The notes beneath the pieces were generated by a model, which saw only the letters and a list, made by a program, of their open reading frames with translations, had not been told where the DNA came from and searched no databases. A stretch of DNA of 64,000 nucleotides, taken from Flavobacteriaceae bacterium D16. Lineage in GTDB: Bacteria; Bacteroidota; Bacteroidia; Flavobacteriales; Flavobacteriaceae. The DNA lies in assembly GCA_021295155.1 (NCBI GenBank), contig JAJTJC010000036.1, forward strand, positions 1,209,690 to 1,273,689, read 5' to 3'. Shown piece by piece: positions 35,018-59,013 of this stretch (positions are counted from its first letter, which is position 1; every line of letters begins with the position of its first letter). Position numbers and translations under genes: made by a program.

Positions 35018-35368
35018 TTACTTTTTATTTTCTGATTTCAGGAAGGAATGCAGGATGGAATTCAATAGCGATAGGAGCAGGCTAAACAGGAGGGCCCACC
35101 AAATACTGCTTACTGAAAAGCCATTGATCAGGGCATCGGCTAAAAGGATTATCAGGGCATTGATGATAAGTAAAAAGAGCCCGAGGGTGATTATGGTAAT
35201 CGGCAAGGTGAGAATTATAAGAATAGGCTTGACCAGGAAATTAAGCAAACTTAAGACCAGCGCCACAATAATTGCAGTAATATAGCTGTCTACGGTAACA
35301 CCAGGTAATATATTGGCCAGTACCACCACTGCCAATGCGCTCAGTAATAATTTCAGTATAAAATTCAT
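35018..35368 (-). CDS. Small four-helix membrane protein, phage-holin superfamily IV type (DUF360-like)
   Basis: This 116-residue protein has four hydrophobic helices (about 2-20, 27-47, 54-76, 84-108), with the conserved region LNFLVKPILIILTLPITIITLGLFLLIINA. Such proteins are annotated as mycobacterial 4-TMS phage-holin family but occur widely in non-phage chromosomes; no lytic role is implied, and no phage genes lie nearby. I take ATG 35368, the first with the hydrophobic start MNFILKLLLS; the longer frame begins 48 bp upstream and overlaps a terminator hairpin. Confidence 0.8.
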   Translation of the reverse strand: MNFILKLLLSALAVVVLANILPGVTVDSYITAIIVALVLSLLNFLVKPILIILTLPITIITLGLFLLIINALIILLADALINGFSVSSIWWALLFSLLLSLLNSILHSFLKSENKK

Positions 35369-35378
35369 GTCCAAATTT

Positions 35379-35407
35379 AAAAAGGTGCCGAAACCTTCGA
35401 CACCTTT
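35379..35407 (-). terminator. Terminator of the SGNH lipoprotein gene
   Basis: On the minus strand AAAGGTG / CACCTTT (with an inner CG/CG step) is followed by five T. It ends 10 bp before the ATG of the downstream membrane protein. The segment GTTTCGGCACCTTTTT is shared with the tig-clpP hairpin. Confidence 0.7.
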
Positions 35408-35429
35408 AAAGTACAAAATATTTTAATTT

Positions 35430-37055
35430 CTAGTTGATGTAAAGCCCTTTATAGTCCAGCGGATTGACTCCTGGTAGGTTAGAGCCGTATTTGGCATTGA
35501 TTGCTTCAATAATAGCATTTGCCAGCAATGCAGATCCTCTGGGAGCCGGGTGTACCCCATCCAAAGAAAATCCTCCACCTGTGGCGAATGTATCAGTAAC
35601 TATACTGCCATCACTTAAAGGTGCCCCTTGTGTTGAGATGACATTTTGATAGGTGTTTACATCTACTAATGCGAGGTCATATTGGGTGGCCAGAGCCGCA
35701 ATCGTTTGGTTATAAGCTGTGGTTGCAGTTTCAACGGCCTGTTGCTCTTCTGGAGTCAATACCCATTTATCTTCCAGGGGAAGAGAAACGCCTTCCACAG
35801 AAAATTGACCTGCAAGTTGGGCAGACAATCCCTGGTTGACTAAATTCTGTAAGACGTCTGTATTTACTGTTCCGATCACCGTAGAGCTGGTTAAAACGAT
35901 CAAATCTTCAGCGGTCGCCTGTCTTGCCTGTCCATAAGTTGCTCCCAATAAATTGGCTACAAGTGGCGCGGCCTGGGGCGGTAATCCAAACTGTGCGATG
36001 AAGGCCTCGAATGTCGGAAGATCTGCGAGCAGGGCCCCTGCAATAGTAGCAGATAGATTTGCGAGATCTTCATCTATGATGACCACAGGACTTGCCTCCG
36101 TCTCTGAAAATACCACGATACGTTCTGTCGCACCTATGGCTGTATAAATTTGATTCAAAGCACCGAATATTGTGTTCAGGAGCGGAATTTGAGGTCCAAA
36201 ATCAGGATTCGAAGGATCCAAAGGGTTATATGGAACCGTTGTAAAATAGGGCAGGGCACTTACGTCTGGTAGATTGACCACTACGCCGTCAGCGCCATTC
36301 GCAGTAAGCGTTTGCAGCAGGCCGGAATAAACACCTGCAAAAAGGGTCGGATCTGTTATATCTGAACCTCCGTAGGTTGTGGCATCAGGGTTGCCTGTTT
36401 GGTCTACTCCTGAACCACCTGAAGCGGCAAAACCCAATACATCGTTGTTTCCGATCCACAAAGAGAAAAAGGTAGGATTCTGCGCCGCAGCATCCTCAAT
36501 AATTGTCGCATTGGGGGAGCTTGCAAAGCGGGCATAATAGGGATTAGCCTGACCTAGGGCAACACCAGCCACATTACCATATCCCTCAGCTACCAGGTGA
36601 TAACTTTTGGCACCGGGAACGCCCATATTGTTGAAGGCTCCACCCAGAACATTAGAAATTTCAGTTGTCCCAGTTCCGCTAACCGCAGTTGGTGTAGGAG
36701 ATCCGGTTGAAAAATCGAGAATTAGCCTGTTTCCCAAAATAGGTTGTCCGCCCAGGGTGGCGCCACCCAAGTTATCGGCCATAAAAGGAATATTAAAAGC
36801 ACCACCACCAACAAGTTCGAAATTACCCGCCAGCATATTGGGGTATGAATTTGTTTGTCCTTCAATAAATAAAGCGTTGTCAGAGTATCCGGCGGTAATC
36901 GAGTTGCCCAGGGCAACATAATTCGAAAAATCGGCGGTTCCAGCAGTAAATACTATGGGATCCGGATCAGGGATCTCATTGCCTGAGAAGTCGTCATCGC
37001 TACAGGAAATCAAAAAAAGTCCGCCCATGGCGAACAGCATCCAAATCTTTTTCAT
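35430..37055 (-). CDS. SGNH/GDSL-type lipoprotein hydrolase
   Basis: This 541-residue protein begins with a lipoprotein signal peptide (MGGLFLISCSDDD, acylated Cys about residue 18). The SGNH blocks are visible: ALGNSITAGYSDN (block I, the catalytic Ser), a Gly-containing LVAEGYGN segment (block II-like), LWIGNNDVLGFA (block III, Asn) and DGVHPAPRGSALLA (block V, Asp and His). It is an outer-membrane-directed esterase or lipase; the substrate is unknown. A strong promoter lies upstream and a perfect 14-bp palindrome lies further upstream of that. Confidence 0.9.
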   Translation of the reverse strand: MKKIWMLFAMGGLFLISCSDDDFSGNEIPDPDPIVFTAGTADFSNYVALGNSITAGYSDNALFIEGQTNSYPNMLAGNFELVGGGAFNIPFMADNLGGATLGGQPILGNRLILDFSTGSPTPTAVSGTGTTEISNVLGGAFNNMGVPGAKSYHLVAEGYGNVAGVALGQANPYYARFASSPNATIIEDAAAQNPTFFSLWIGNNDVLGFAASGGSGVDQTGNPDATTYGGSDITDPTLFAGVYSGLLQTLTANGADGVVVNLPDVSALPYFTTVPYNPLDPSNPDFGPQIPLLNTIFGALNQIYTAIGATERIVVFSETEASPVVIIDEDLANLSATIAGALLADLPTFEAFIAQFGLPPQAAPLVANLLGATYGQARQATAEDLIVLTSSTVIGTVNTDVLQNLVNQGLSAQLAGQFSVEGVSLPLEDKWVLTPEEQQAVETATTAYNQTIAALATQYDLALVDVNTYQNVISTQGAPLSDGSIVTDTFATGGGFSLDGVHPAPRGSALLANAIIEAINAKYGSNLPGVNPLDYKGLYIN

Positions 37056-37107: not shown

Positions 37108-37137
37108 CAAAAATAATTAAAAATGCAAGACATGCAA
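37108..37137 (-). promoter_or_regulatory. Promoter of the SGNH lipoprotein gene
   Basis: On the minus strand TTG (37137-37135), a 19-bp spacer and TATTTTTG (37115-37108) match the flavobacterial promoter. Start near 37101. The palindrome at 37154-37167 lies upstream of the -33 box. Confidence 0.7.
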
Positions 37138-37153: not shown

Positions 37154-37167
37154 TTATGCATGCATAA
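37154..37167. promoter_or_regulatory. Perfect 14-bp palindrome, candidate operator (copy 1)
   Basis: TTATGCATGCATAA is a perfect inverted repeat about 100 bp upstream of the SGNH lipoprotein gene and between it and the YbfF-like gene. Its 12-bp core TATGCATGCATA recurs at 57914-57925 in the etfB/pdhB intergenic region. Regulator unknown. Confidence 0.45.
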
Positions 37168-37181
37168 CAAAACCCTGGCAA

Positions 37182-37952
37182 TCAATTCTTGAGAAATACT
37201 TCAGCATATTCAATAAACTGCTGTGGGTTTTCTGCATGCAGCCAATGACCGGCGTCCTCAACGGTTTCCAAATAGGCTTTTGGAAAGTGGTTTCTGATCA
37301 AATTAATATCGGCATCTGCCACATATTCAGAGCGGCTTCCTCGTAGAAAAAGTACAGGCCCGTCATAGGTTGCAGTAGCCTCGAGAGCATCTCCTATCTC
37401 TTCCATTTTTTGGGATAGTACCTTCAAGTTAAAGCGAAAGTCGAGCTTATCTTTCTCTACCCAATGCAGGCTTTTCAGGAGAAACTGCCGAATACCCCAG
37501 TCGTGTAAATACTTAGCCAGTTCAAAATCAGCGGCACTCCGGGATTTCAATGAAGCCACTGGAAGTGCTACAAGTGCATCTATTATATATTGGTGATGAG
37601 GAGGGTAGAATTTAGGGGCAATATCCGCAATAATCAATTTTTTTATCCGGTCCGGATGGGTACATGCAAAGGTCATGGCTGTTTTCCCGCCCATAGAATG
37701 CCCCAGGATACACGCACTTTTCAGGTGGTGATGATCCATGTAGGTTAACAGGTCTTCAGCAAGGATATCGTAGTTGAAATCTTCAGACCAAAAACTCTTA
37801 CCGTGGTTGCGCTGGTCAATTAAATGCACCTGGTAGCCCATTTTGGAGAATTGACTTCCGAGGGTTTTCCAATTATCGGACATACCCAAAAATCCATGCA
37901 GGATTAACAAGGGATCTCCTTCTCCCAGGATATTTGAATGTAATATTTCCAT
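37182..37952 (-). CDS. Alpha/beta-hydrolase, YbfF-type esterase
   Basis: This 256-residue cytosolic hydrolase has the oxyanion HGFLGMSDNW, the nucleophile elbow GHSMGGKTAM and the catalytic His in EDAGHWLHAENP, with the acid probably the Asp of VADADI (strand 7). It is close to YbfF-type esterases, whose E. coli member hydrolyses acyl thioesters and small esters; the physiological substrate is not known. Its ATG overlaps the pdxJ stop by one base (TAATG), so the two are one transcription unit. Confidence 0.88.
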   Translation of the reverse strand: MEILHSNILGEGDPLLILHGFLGMSDNWKTLGSQFSKMGYQVHLIDQRNHGKSFWSEDFNYDILAEDLLTYMDHHHLKSACILGHSMGGKTAMTFACTHPDRIKKLIIADIAPKFYPPHHQYIIDALVALPVASLKSRSAADFELAKYLHDWGIRQFLLKSLHWVEKDKLDFRFNLKVLSQKMEEIGDALEATATYDGPVLFLRGSRSEYVADADINLIRNHFPKAYLETVEDAGHWLHAENPQQFIEYAEVFLKN

Positions 37953-56096: not shown

Positions 56097-57065
56097 TTAG
56101 GCGTTTTGGGCCTTAAATTCCTTTAATTTTTCAGTGAGTTTCGGTACAACTTCAAAGGCATCTCCAACAATTCCATAGTCGGCCGCTTTGAAAAAAGGAG
56201 CTTCGGGGTCTGTGTTAATGACCACTTTTACCTTAGAAGCGCTAACACCTGCTAAATGCTGAATAGCTCCTGATATTCCTATAGCGATATATAAATTACT
56301 GGCCACCGGTTTACCTGTCTGCCCAACGTGCTCTCCGTGAGGACGCCACCCCAGGTCGGAAACAGGTTTGGAACAGGCGGTTGCAGCACCGAGCACATCG
56401 GCAAGATCTTCGATTAATCCCCAGTTTTCAGGTCCCTTTAAGCCTCGTCCACCGGAAACTACCACATCGGCGTCAGCAATAGTTGCCTTACCCACAACCT
56501 GGTCTATTTCAACGGATTTCGTTCCAAAATCTTCATCACTAAGTTTCGGACTAAATGCTTCTACGGAACAACTAACACTATTTTCATGAGTTCCATAAGC
56601 ATTATTGGAAACCCCGATAATGTTTTTATCAGCCTGTAGTTCTGTAAACATATAGCCTTTGTTAGTGAAAGCGGTTCGCTTTACTACGAGAGGAGATACA
56701 TTTTCTGGTCCGGCAACCGCATTAGTTGCGTATCCGGCTTCAAGCGCTCCTGCCAGTATTCCCGCCATATATTTGGCATCTGTGCTGGAACTTACAACTA
56801 TTACAGAGGCATTTTCATTTTTTGCAACCTCTGCTAATACGGCAGCGTAGGCCTTGGCATTGAACGTTTTCAGGGCATCATCCTGGATATGCAAAACCTT
56901 GGAAACCCCATAATTACCGAGCATTTCAGCCTCTTCTGCATGAAAAGCTACTGCGGTTACCTCTGCTCCGGTTTTATCGGCAATCTCTTTGGCATAAGAG
57001 GCTACCTCAAATGCATTTTTTTTGAATTTTCCTTTTTCTGATTCGGTATATACTAAAACTGACAT
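56097..57065 (-). CDS. etfA: Electron transfer flavoprotein alpha subunit
   Basis: This 322-residue FAD-binding subunit carries electrons from acyl-CoA dehydrogenases to the respiratory chain. The C-terminal FAD domain has VSGGRGLKGPENW, RPHGEHVGQTGKPV, AIGISGAIQHLAGVSA, and INTDPEAPFFKAADYGIVGD. It lies 35 bp after etfB. Confidence 0.95.
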   Translation of the reverse strand: MSVLVYTESEKGKFKKNAFEVASYAKEIADKTGAEVTAVAFHAEEAEMLGNYGVSKVLHIQDDALKTFNAKAYAAVLAEVAKNENASVIVVSSSTDAKYMAGILAGALEAGYATNAVAGPENVSPLVVKRTAFTNKGYMFTELQADKNIIGVSNNAYGTHENSVSCSVEAFSPKLSDEDFGTKSVEIDQVVGKATIADADVVVSGGRGLKGPENWGLIEDLADVLGAATACSKPVSDLGWRPHGEHVGQTGKPVASNLYIAIGISGAIQHLAGVSASKVKVVINTDPEAPFFKAADYGIVGDAFEVVPKLTEKLKEFKAQNA

Positions 57066-57100: not shown

Positions 57101-57847
57101 CTAAATTACTTTGGCTTCATTGTGCAACAACTCGATCAGTTCGTCCAGGTTTTCCGCATCAATTAATTTTACCTCTCCTTTGGGGGCCGGGCGCTCAAAT
57201 TTGATCTCCTTGCTAGTTTGTTTAGCCTCCACGGCAGGAATAACATTAAGTATTTTTTTCCTGGCCATCATAATACCTCTCATATTAGGGATTCGAAGAT
57301 CACTTTCTTCCACCAGTCCTTTTTGACCACCAATTATCAGCGGCAACGAAGCTTCGATTTTTTCTTTTCCACCGTCAATCTCCCGAAATGCGGTTGCCTG
57401 ATTTCCCTCTACTTCCAGTGAAATACAGGTATTGACAAAATTCATATTGAGCATGGCAGCCATCATACCTGGTACCATCCCCCCATTATAGTCTATGGAT
57501 TCCCGGCCGGCTATAACCAGGTCATATTCCCCATTTTTAACCACCTCTGCCAATTGGCGTGCCACGAAGAGACCTTCGGTGGGGGTAGCATCGACCCGAA
57601 TACCTTCATCGGCTCCAATAGCGAGTGCTTTTCTCATGGTAGGTTCAACACTCTGATCGCCTACTGTAGCAACATGAACCACTGCACCTTGCTTCTCCTT
57701 AAACCACATGGCCCGGGTAAGTCCGAATTCATCATTGGGATTAATCACAAACTGCACTCCGGTGGTATCAAAACGGGTGTCATCTGCCGTGAAATTGATT
57801 TTAGAGGTTGTATCGGGTACACTACTGATACAGACTAATATTTTCAT
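57101..57847 (-). CDS. etfB: Electron transfer flavoprotein beta subunit
   Basis: This 248-residue subunit binds AMP and pairs with EtfA. Motifs are KILVCISSVPDT at the start, IRVDATPTEGLFVARQLAE, and AGRESIDYNGGMVPGMMAA with the C-terminal recognition region. A TAnnTTTG-like box (57892-57885) and a palindrome lie upstream, so it heads the etfBA unit. Confidence 0.95.
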   Translation of the reverse strand: MKILVCISSVPDTTSKINFTADDTRFDTTGVQFVINPNDEFGLTRAMWFKEKQGAVVHVATVGDQSVEPTMRKALAIGADEGIRVDATPTEGLFVARQLAEVVKNGEYDLVIAGRESIDYNGGMVPGMMAAMLNMNFVNTCISLEVEGNQATAFREIDGGKEKIEASLPLIIGGQKGLVEESDLRIPNMRGIMMARKKILNVIPAVEAKQTSKEIKFERPAPKGEVKLIDAENLDELIELLHNEAKVI

Positions 57848-57884: not shown

Positions 57885-57892
57885 CAAAGATA
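57885..57892 (-). promoter_or_regulatory. -7 box of etfBA
   Basis: On the minus strand TATCTTTG (57892-57885). No TTG lies at -33; the palindrome 57914-57925 occupies that place instead. Confidence 0.5.
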
Positions 57893-57913
57893 GCCAATAT
57901 ATTTGTAAAATAC

Positions 57914-57925
57914 TATGCATGCATA
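57914..57925. promoter_or_regulatory. Perfect 12-bp palindrome, candidate operator (copy 2)
   Basis: TATGCATGCATA, identical to the core of 37154-37167. Here it overlaps the expected -33 region of the etfBA promoter and lies about 110 bp upstream of pdhB. Confidence 0.45.
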
Positions 57926-57981
57926 ATAAATTTTGTTGCTTTTTTTGATTTTACCTACTGTTTTATTGGCTGATATTTTCC

Positions 57982-57989
57982 TATTTTTG
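57982..57989 (+). promoter_or_regulatory. Possible -7 box of pdhB
   Basis: TATTTTTG matches TAnnTTTG, 46 bp upstream of the pdhB ATG. A matching TTG is not at the usual distance. Confidence 0.4.
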
Positions 57990-58035
57990 TCAGCCGCAAG
58001 GACAAAGCCTTCAGGGGCAAAAAAAGAAGTATACG

Positions 58036-59013
58036 ATGAGAACAATCCAATTCAGAGAAGCTATCGCCGAAGCCATGTCCGAAGAAATGCGTCGGGATGA
58101 ATCCATCTACCTGATGGGAGAAGAAGTAGCAGAGTACAACGGAGCATATAAGGCTTCTAAAGGTATGCTGGATGAATTTGGACCAGAAAGGGTATTGGAT
58201 ACCCCAATATCGGAGTTAGGTTTTGCCGGTGTTGGCGTGGGTTCTGCCATGAATGGTAATCGACCCATAATTGAATTCATGACCTTTAATTTTTCCCTGG
58301 TAGGGATTGACCAGATCATCAATAATGCGGCAAAGATGCGGCAAATGTCAGGCGGTCAGTTTAATATTCCCATTGTTTTTCGCGGACCAACGGCCTCAGC
58401 CGGGCAGCTTGCGGCAACACATTCCCAGGCATTCGAAAGCTGGTTTGCCAATTGTCCCGGACTCAAAGTAGTTGTGCCCTCCAATCCTTATGATGCCAAA
58501 GGGCTCCTTAAGTCTTCTATTCGTGATGACGATCCGGTAATTTTCATGGAATCCGAGCAAATGTATGGGGACAAGGGAGAGGTGCCCGAGGGTGAATTCA
58601 CCATTCCAATTGGAGTTGCCGAAATCAAGCGTGAAGGAACTGATGTCACCATCGTTTCCTTTGGTAAAATTATCAAAGAAGCTTACAAGGCTGCAGAAGA
58701 ATTAGAGAAAGAAGGAGTAAGTTGTGAAATCATTGATCTTAGGACAGTACGCCCGATGGATCATGATGCCATTCTGAAATCTGTAAAGAAAACCAATAGG
58801 TTGGTTATCCTGGAGGAAGCCTGGCCGTTTGGAAATGTTTCCACCGAAATCACCTATCAAATACAATCCCAGGCCTTTGATTATTTGGATGCACCTATTG
58901 TAAGGCTAAATACAGCGGACACACCGGCACCGTATTCGCCAGTTTTATTAGCAGAGTGGCTTCCCAATGCTGAGGATGTCATAAAGGCTGTTAAGAAAGT
59001 GTTATACAAATAA
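58036..59013 (+). CDS. pdhB: Pyruvate dehydrogenase E1 component, beta subunit
   Basis: This 325-residue E1 beta subunit of a 2-oxoacid dehydrogenase has the thiamine diphosphate-binding region GEEVAEYNGAYKASKGM, the family core PISELGFAGVGVGSAMNG and the C-terminal half DVTIVSFGKIIKEAY. The length and the alpha-beta type fit PdhB; a branched-chain version cannot be fully excluded. The alpha subunit and E2 are not in the window, so pdhB stands alone here, as in many Flavobacteriia. Confidence 0.88.
   Translation: MRTIQFREAIAEAMSEEMRRDESIYLMGEEVAEYNGAYKASKGMLDEFGPERVLDTPISELGFAGVGVGSAMNGNRPIIEFMTFNFSLVGIDQIINNAAKMRQMSGGQFNIPIVFRGPTASAGQLAATHSQAFESWFANCPGLKVVVPSNPYDAKGLLKSSIRDDDPVIFMESEQMYGDKGEVPEGEFTIPIGVAEIKREGTDVTIVSFGKIIKEAYKAAEELEKEGVSCEIIDLRTVRPMDHDAILKSVKKTNRLVILEEAWPFGNVSTEITYQIQSQAFDYLDAPIVRLNTADTPAPYSPVLLAEWLPNAEDVIKAVKKVLYK

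Follow-up and report, generated by a model that had tools for sequence, protein, structure and literature searches.

What is the role of a 12-bp palindrome that recurs in the promoter regions of two separate genes of a flavobacterium, and which protein would recognize it? The window, i.e. the whole stretch of 64,000 nucleotides that we analysed, contains TATGCATGCATA at positions 37155–37166 and 57914–57925. An initial annotation had described the two copies as unique in the window and as lying in upstream regions, one before the promoter of an SGNH-hydrolase gene and the other over the -33 region of etfBA; it had further proposed that they serve a regulator responsive to fatty acids or acyl-CoA. 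Exact scans and scans allowing up to two mismatches agree that the window offers no third place, and the placement of both copies is right. The proposed function gains support from a third copy elsewhere in the genome, behind which a candidate MarR-family gene heads a beta-oxidation operon. As set out below, the sequence evidence argues that TATGCATGCATA is the operator core of an autoregulated MarR protein that would control a beta-oxidation regulon, a reading to which we assign a probability of about 0.83.

The first copy widens to a 14-bp perfect palindrome, TTATGCATGCATAA (37154–37167), and is located between the SGNH gene (35430–37055, minus strand) and an alpha/beta-hydrolase gene (37182–37952, minus strand). 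With boxes and gaps read off the sequence, this putative operator stands 38 bp upstream of the putative -7 box of the SGNH gene, TATTTTTG (37108–37115, minus strand), which places its centre at about -57.5; the flavobacterial consensus for this box, TAnnTTTG at -12 to -5, comes from passages of PMC9723704. The probable target encodes a 541-aa protein with an SGNH/GDSL-hydrolase domain (Pfam Lipase_GDSL_2, 37 bits at a cut-off of 32.9) and, by eye, a lipobox-like LISC near the N-terminus. Downstream of it, at 35018–35416, lies a gene whose product matches the 4-TMS phage holin superfamily IV (Pfam PF04020).

The second copy occupies the intergenic region common to etfB (57101–57847, minus strand; electron transfer flavoprotein beta subunit, Pfam ETF) and a divergent pdhB-like gene (58036–59013, plus strand; E1 beta subunit, Pfam Transket_pyr and Transketolase_C). 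Here, the putative operator CTATGCATGCATAA (57913–57926), which reads TTATGCATGCATAG toward etfB, is found 20 bp upstream of the putative -7 box TATCTTTG (57885–57892, minus strand) and thus over the -33 region, with its centre at about -39.5. The probable target is etfB, in line with which follows etfA (56097–57065, minus strand; alpha subunit, Pfam ETF_alpha). A TATTTTTG box also belongs to the pdhB-like gene, and the same copy stands 55 bp upstream of it, a feature that the initial annotation omitted. Unlike the gap to the etfB box, this second gap is variable (35–56 bp in 9/11 relatives with a box seen), so that pyruvate dehydrogenase may or may not be co-regulated through the region 57927–58035.

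Genome-wide (3.22 Mb in 35 contigs), TATGCATGCATA occurs three times, always in intergenic regions, and its reversed control word not at all; it is therefore not a word common within genes, which the initial annotation had named as a possibility to be checked. The third copy, outside the window at C30:215661–215672, forms the middle of a perfect 28-bp palindrome, AAATTTATTATGCATGCATAATAAATTT. Directly downstream of it starts the gene for a 149-aa MarR-family protein, followed on the same strand by genes for an 801-aa FadB-like 3-hydroxyacyl-CoA dehydrogenase/enoyl-CoA hydratase, a 396-aa thiolase and a 603-aa acyl-CoA dehydrogenase, in an operon of the order marR-fadB-fadA-acyl-CoA dehydrogenase with marR at its head; an acyl-CoA-synthetase-like (AMP-binding) gene lies ahead of the site. 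The relaxed consensus YTATGCNNGCATAR yields four sites in the genome and its reversed pattern none. All four precede acyl-CoA- or lipid-related genes, and the palindrome is concentrated ahead of lipid-oxidation genes, the enrichment that an operator of this kind had been expected to show. The fourth site, TTATGCGTGCATAG at C11:423779, is situated between divergent YbgC/FadM-like thioesterase and FabK/nitronate-monooxygenase-like genes, both named from NCBIfam matches below the cut-off; relatives of the two (64–67% and 76–83% identical) flank a site in two further loci (L097 and L117), in one of which (L097) the thioesterase matches Pfam 4HBT_2.

Weaker look-alikes with two to three mismatches number 144 in the genome, versus 125 for the reversed control. 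Among 15 look-alike loci that we inspected, eight matches fall inside an open frame and a single locus (L007) fits the regulon. ACP and KAS II, as recognized by eye, are encoded in a stretch (L009) whose only match has two mismatches and does not fit the consensus. The sequence TTATGCGTGCATAC before a small ORF and, by eye, a dehydroquinate-synthase-like gene (L013) was excluded from the set of sites because it breaks the consensus.

Among 120 genomes of the family, the exact word TATGCATGCATA occurs 267 times, in 94 genomes, as compared with 8 occurrences of the reversed word, 14 of the control palindrome TTAGCATGCTAA and 29 of the reverse of the latter. Within the window, none of 100 dinucleotide shuffles contained TATGCATGCATA, and Markov models of order 1 to 5 predict 0.001–0.005 copies. 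Together, the shuffles, the Markov expectation and the family-wide control palindromes lead us to reject an origin by chance. Self-complementary short words are typical modification sites, yet the idea of a chance palindrome, or of a trace of restriction-modification or another DNA-level process, retains practically no probability, given only three genomic copies that stand at promoters with conserved spacing, a family-wide count far above that of control palindromes of the same letters, and conservation of the palindrome in orthologous promoters.

This conservation is seen at etfB, which has matches in 119/120 family genomes. The consensus lies within 300 bp upstream of it at 30/30 loci (our own and the 29 closest), often as a palindrome like CTATGCATGCATAG, and the gap from operator to -7 box is 20–22 bp at 27 of these. 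Upstream of etfB in 13 more diverged MarR-bearing genomes, we found the exact TATGCNNGCATA core in seven, a near form in two and neither in four. Matches to the SGNH protein are present in 93/120 genomes, and the SGNH-side site is often absent: a site directly upstream was seen at 5/30 loci, again our own and the 29 closest (our own, G032, G026, G102 and G080), with a gap to the -7 box of 37–39 bp in all five. G104 and G086 supply two further sites directly before SGNH.

Elsewhere, the SGNH gene comes after a gene for a TonB-dependent receptor. In eight pairs of site and SGNH gene that we compared, the site is located 2.85–3.0 kb upstream of SGNH in seven and 1.4 kb upstream in one. Among 20 stretches upstream of receptor-linked SGNH genes, 17 contain the receptor and 10 the TATGCNNGCATA core. 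In a separate count at TonB receptor promoters, the gap to the -7 box is 38–40 bp in 7/10. The boxes of TonB receptor promoters (L053, L065, L073, L076 and others) are often TAnnTTGC-like rather than TAnnTTTG. They resemble the alternative SM5 class described for Flavobacterium psychrophilum in passages of PMC9723704 and therefore suggest another sigma factor for the receptor promoters.

These distances also bear on whether the first copy could serve the alpha/beta-hydrolase gene, for instance as part of its terminator, and not SGNH. The copy is only 15 bp away from the hydrolase stop codon, and in four relatives of the same arrangement the orthologous hydrolase gene (product 58–61% identical) ends 18–19 bp away. 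However, a loopless 14-bp palindrome makes a poor terminator hairpin, relatives keep the site at the same distance from the start of SGNH (about 100 bp) and from the SGNH -7 box, and a near-equal gap recurs at the TonB receptor promoters despite other neighbours. We thus regard a role for the hydrolase gene as very improbable and retain SGNH as the probable target.

For the marR promoter, we collected loci by protein rather than by motif, using an alignment of 27 orthologues and taking the best 80 of 576 confirmed loci, which come from Eudoraea, Lentiprolixibacter, Maribacter, Arenibacter, Muricauda and others; MarR starts in the relatives were set by alignment. The consensus occurs within 250 bp upstream of marR at 80/80 loci, which would place an inverted repeat in the regulator's own predicted promoter throughout, and the 958,617 bases of these loci contain only one further match. 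With six scrambled patterns, the same loci yielded one match in all, and none upstream of marR. The gene neighbourhood is equally stable: downstream of marR follow fadB at 80/80 loci and thiolase (fadA) and acyl-CoA dehydrogenase at 77/80, the other three loci ending early, and fadD lies ahead of marR on the same strand at 76/80. Counting the first pattern match, the site ends 10–11 bp before a TAnnTTTG-like box at 69/80 loci; the 11 deviating gaps (0, 2, 38, 39 or none) mostly arise, by eye, where the pattern picks up a different match, where sites are in tandem or where the box is a variant. Among 29 loci with a consensus, the gap is 10–11 bp at 27. Eleven orthologues from other families (44–49% identical; L280–L290) are mostly preceded by recognizable forms, such as GTATGCACGCATAA or TTATGCGTGCATAC, and one of them (L290) has no recognizable operator form ahead of marR. 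In some genera, tandem operator copies, 28–29 bp apart, precede marR (L245, L249, L253, L256, L257, L277 and L279); the outer copy often shows a gap of 38–39 bp, as at the SGNH and TonB receptor promoters.

The MarR protein itself carries the winged-helix domain PF01047 (42.5 bits, cut-off 24.6). At an E-value of 0.001, its only matches were MarR-type, generic winged-helix and SarA/Rot-type domains, with none to other DNA-binding types such as GntR or TetR. Its nearest named relatives are from Eudoraea and Lentiprolixibacter. A predicted model of an orthologue that is 92% identical (L181; mean pLDDT 86.8) shows a MarR fold and best matches MarR proteins (2gxg, Z 16.6, rmsd 3.1 over 140 residues; 4lln, Z 16.4, rmsd 1.7 over 137 residues). 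The solved structures among the matches listed are MarR-type, with Z-scores of 14.8–16.6, and include DNA-bound MepR, SlyA and OhrR as well as CouR with p-coumaroyl-CoA; no FabT chain appears among the 50 structure matches listed, which excludes nothing. Named NCBIfam MarR subfamilies (equivalogs such as SlyA, HpaR, OhrR and MarR) gave 11 matches, all below the cut-off, the best being Saro0803TransReg with 45.5 bits against a cut-off of 200.

To see which genes the site accompanies across the family, we inspected the genes around 69 exact sites out of the 267, a set that omits part of the sites adjoining marR; open reading frames were called crudely, as longest ATG frames. At 68/69 sites, a gene starts within 300 bp and points away from the site, and two sites overlap a frame edge. 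By clustering, 56/69 precede one of six gene classes, namely etfB (13), nitronate-monooxygenase-like (11), KAS III-like (11), TonB receptor (10), marR (7, partly left out) and SGNH (4). Among the remaining neighbours are genes for pyruvate carboxylase, S9 and M3 peptidases, a TetR-type protein, a 4HBT thioesterase and a short-chain dehydrogenase with, by eye, a resemblance to 2,4-dienoyl-CoA reductase. That some sites stand before peptidases, pyruvate carboxylase or unrelated genes counts against the proposed regulon.

Two further patterns were seen among these neighbourhoods. A secreted-looking protein family of 166–167 aa (one member scanned, no Pfam match) is encoded before the operator in L086, L089 and L120, in L089 and L120 opposite the nitronate-monooxygenase-like gene. 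At four KAS III loci (L062, L078, L094 and L119), the operator, 163–165 bp upstream of the KAS III-like gene, is directly followed by a terminator-like hairpin (cgctcacttgtgagcg-like plus a T run).

A MarR orthologue is present in 114/120 family genomes, and exact copies occur in 94 of these versus 0/6 genomes without MarR (Fisher p 6e-5), which leaves 20/114 MarR-bearing genomes without one; in genomes of up to 2.8 Mb only, the comparison is 15/23 versus 0/6 (p 0.006). The relaxed consensus matches in 112/114 MarR-bearing versus 2/6 MarR-less genomes but is noisy (491 matches in the 120 genomes versus 103 for the reversed control), because its central NN admits chance matches. None of the five MarR-less genomes with etfB has a site upstream of it, a result that is weak alone since only 7/13 diverged MarR-bearing genomes keep the exact core. 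The relaxed matches in MarR-less genomes are three, one inside a 204-aa frame (L331) and two in the draft genome G015, where they precede genes for a KAS III-like and a nitronate-monooxygenase-like protein, with 84% identity to the L059 counterpart and 85% identity to the L082 counterpart, respectively. This draft has no MarR match, probably through incompleteness, as it is 84% complete and lacks an etfB match. The consensus is missing from two MarR-bearing genomes (G099 and G105), both of which show near variants before marR; in G099 (L316), marR is preceded by TATGCACACATA and TATGTGTGCATA repeats that adjoin each other and may represent a shifted operator.

A site before a gene marks a target, not the binder, and the palindrome could in principle belong to a different regulator for which marR is merely one target among others. 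Other regulators do lie near some sites, for example a TetR_C_23-domain protein in one genome (L074). But autoregulation is usual among MarR proteins and the site stands at marR in every locus of the protein-derived set, all six MarR-less genomes lack exact copies, and the neighbour classes at the 69 inspected sites include no second regulator gene that recurs. We therefore consider a separate regulator improbable and infer, from sequence, that the MarR protein would be what binds the DNA.

Under this MarR reading, a dimer would most likely sit on the inverted repeat with one winged helix per half site. In the frame of the TAnnTTTG box, operator centres fall near -30 at marR, near -40 at etfB and near -58 at SGNH and, in 7/10 cases, at the TonB receptor. 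At the marR promoter, the 28-bp palindrome spans about -17 to -44 and covers the -33 region, so that binding would be expected to shut off the beta-oxidation operon; this position fits autorepression, as in CouR with its boxes over -35 (passages of PMC4737184). MarR would leave the operator in response to an acyl-CoA or a fatty acid that the cell produces or takes up. Since the targets in our genome act on acyl-CoA, on its electrons or, plausibly, in the uptake of lipid, an acyl-CoA is probably the ligand. The window copies would add to the regulon etfBA, the electron acceptor of acyl-CoA dehydrogenase, and the SGNH-hydrolase lipoprotein, which possibly releases or binds lipid outside the cell, while the fourth genomic site would add the thioesterase-like and nitronate-monooxygenase-like genes.

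Pathway logic favours repression of etfBA and SGNH as well, although the fixed upstream positions allow for activation. MarR might accordingly repress only its own promoter and activate etfBA, the TonB receptor and SGNH from three fixed operator distances, with gaps of 10–11 bp at marR, 20–22 bp at etfB and 37–39 or 38–40 bp at SGNH or the receptor. MarR activators have been reported, though most characterized MarR proteins repress (passages of PMC5487221). On the other hand, blocking is also open to a repressor that sits just upstream of -33, and because the targets seem to serve one pathway, one ligand should shift all of them the same way. We view such a dual mode as possible, though rather unlikely. 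More speculative still is its widest form, in which one MarR would act as the master switch of lipid use in Flavobacteriaceae and neighbouring families, repressing itself from near -30 and activating, via contact with RNA polymerase, from near -40 at etfBA and near -58 at the outer-membrane TonB receptor or SGNH genes of lipid uptake.

Much of the degradation of marine organic matter is due to Flavobacteriaceae, a family that also contains fish pathogens. In one of its members, F. psychrophilum, beta-oxidation genes are induced together by fish mucus and plasma; the main text of PMC9723704, as far as it bears on this induction, names no regulator for it and contains neither 'MarR' nor any of the searched motif words. 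In the open-licence PubMed Central papers searched, we found no described regulator of fatty-acid oxidation for Flavobacteriaceae, and in particular no flavobacterial MarR of beta-oxidation and no account of its operator. The beta-oxidation role proposed here for a MarR regulon is likewise one that we did not find described there; the operator is defined and its conservation broad. The operator word and the candidate protein make the control of fatty-acid oxidation directly testable in this family, and the word can be used to find regulon members in its genomes. If the MarR regulon is real, pairs of TonB receptor and SGNH genes whose substrate is not known become tied to lipid use.

Regulators of fatty-acid and branched-chain degradation are known from several protein families, namely FadR (GntR), PsrA/FadR (TetR) and LiuR (MerR); they share with the regulator proposed here the control of beta-oxidation but not its MarR family. 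Streptococcal FabT is, like our candidate, a MarR regulator of fatty-acid metabolism, the effector of which is an acyl chain on its carrier (passages of PMC5487221). FabT, however, represses synthesis (fab) genes, whereas the four sites in our genome lie at beta-oxidation genes, etfBA, SGNH and the thioesterase/nitronate-monooxygenase-like pair, even if KAS III-like genes of relatives do have sites. A close parallel is provided by CouR of Rhodococcus jostii RHA1 and by FerC, which, with related MarR repressors, are freed from DNA by the CoA thioester of their pathway (passages of PMC4737184 and PMC5487221). The predicted model shares the MarR fold with CouR (5cyv, Z 15.4, rmsd 3.2 over 140 residues, 20% identity), and the layout is alike, in that CouR and FerC use inverted-repeat operators over the -35 region at several promoters of one catabolic regulon, their own promoter included (same passages). 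They differ in pathway and operator, as CouR and FerC control hydroxycinnamate catabolism, with a CouR box of the form cATTGA-5 bp-TCAATg, and the present regulator would control beta-oxidation through the core TATGCATGCATA. MarR proteins that respond to CoA thioesters are described as an emerging theme (in part of PMC5487221), and, if our reading is correct, fatty-acid beta-oxidation joins the pathways governed by MarR regulators that are thought to sense such compounds.
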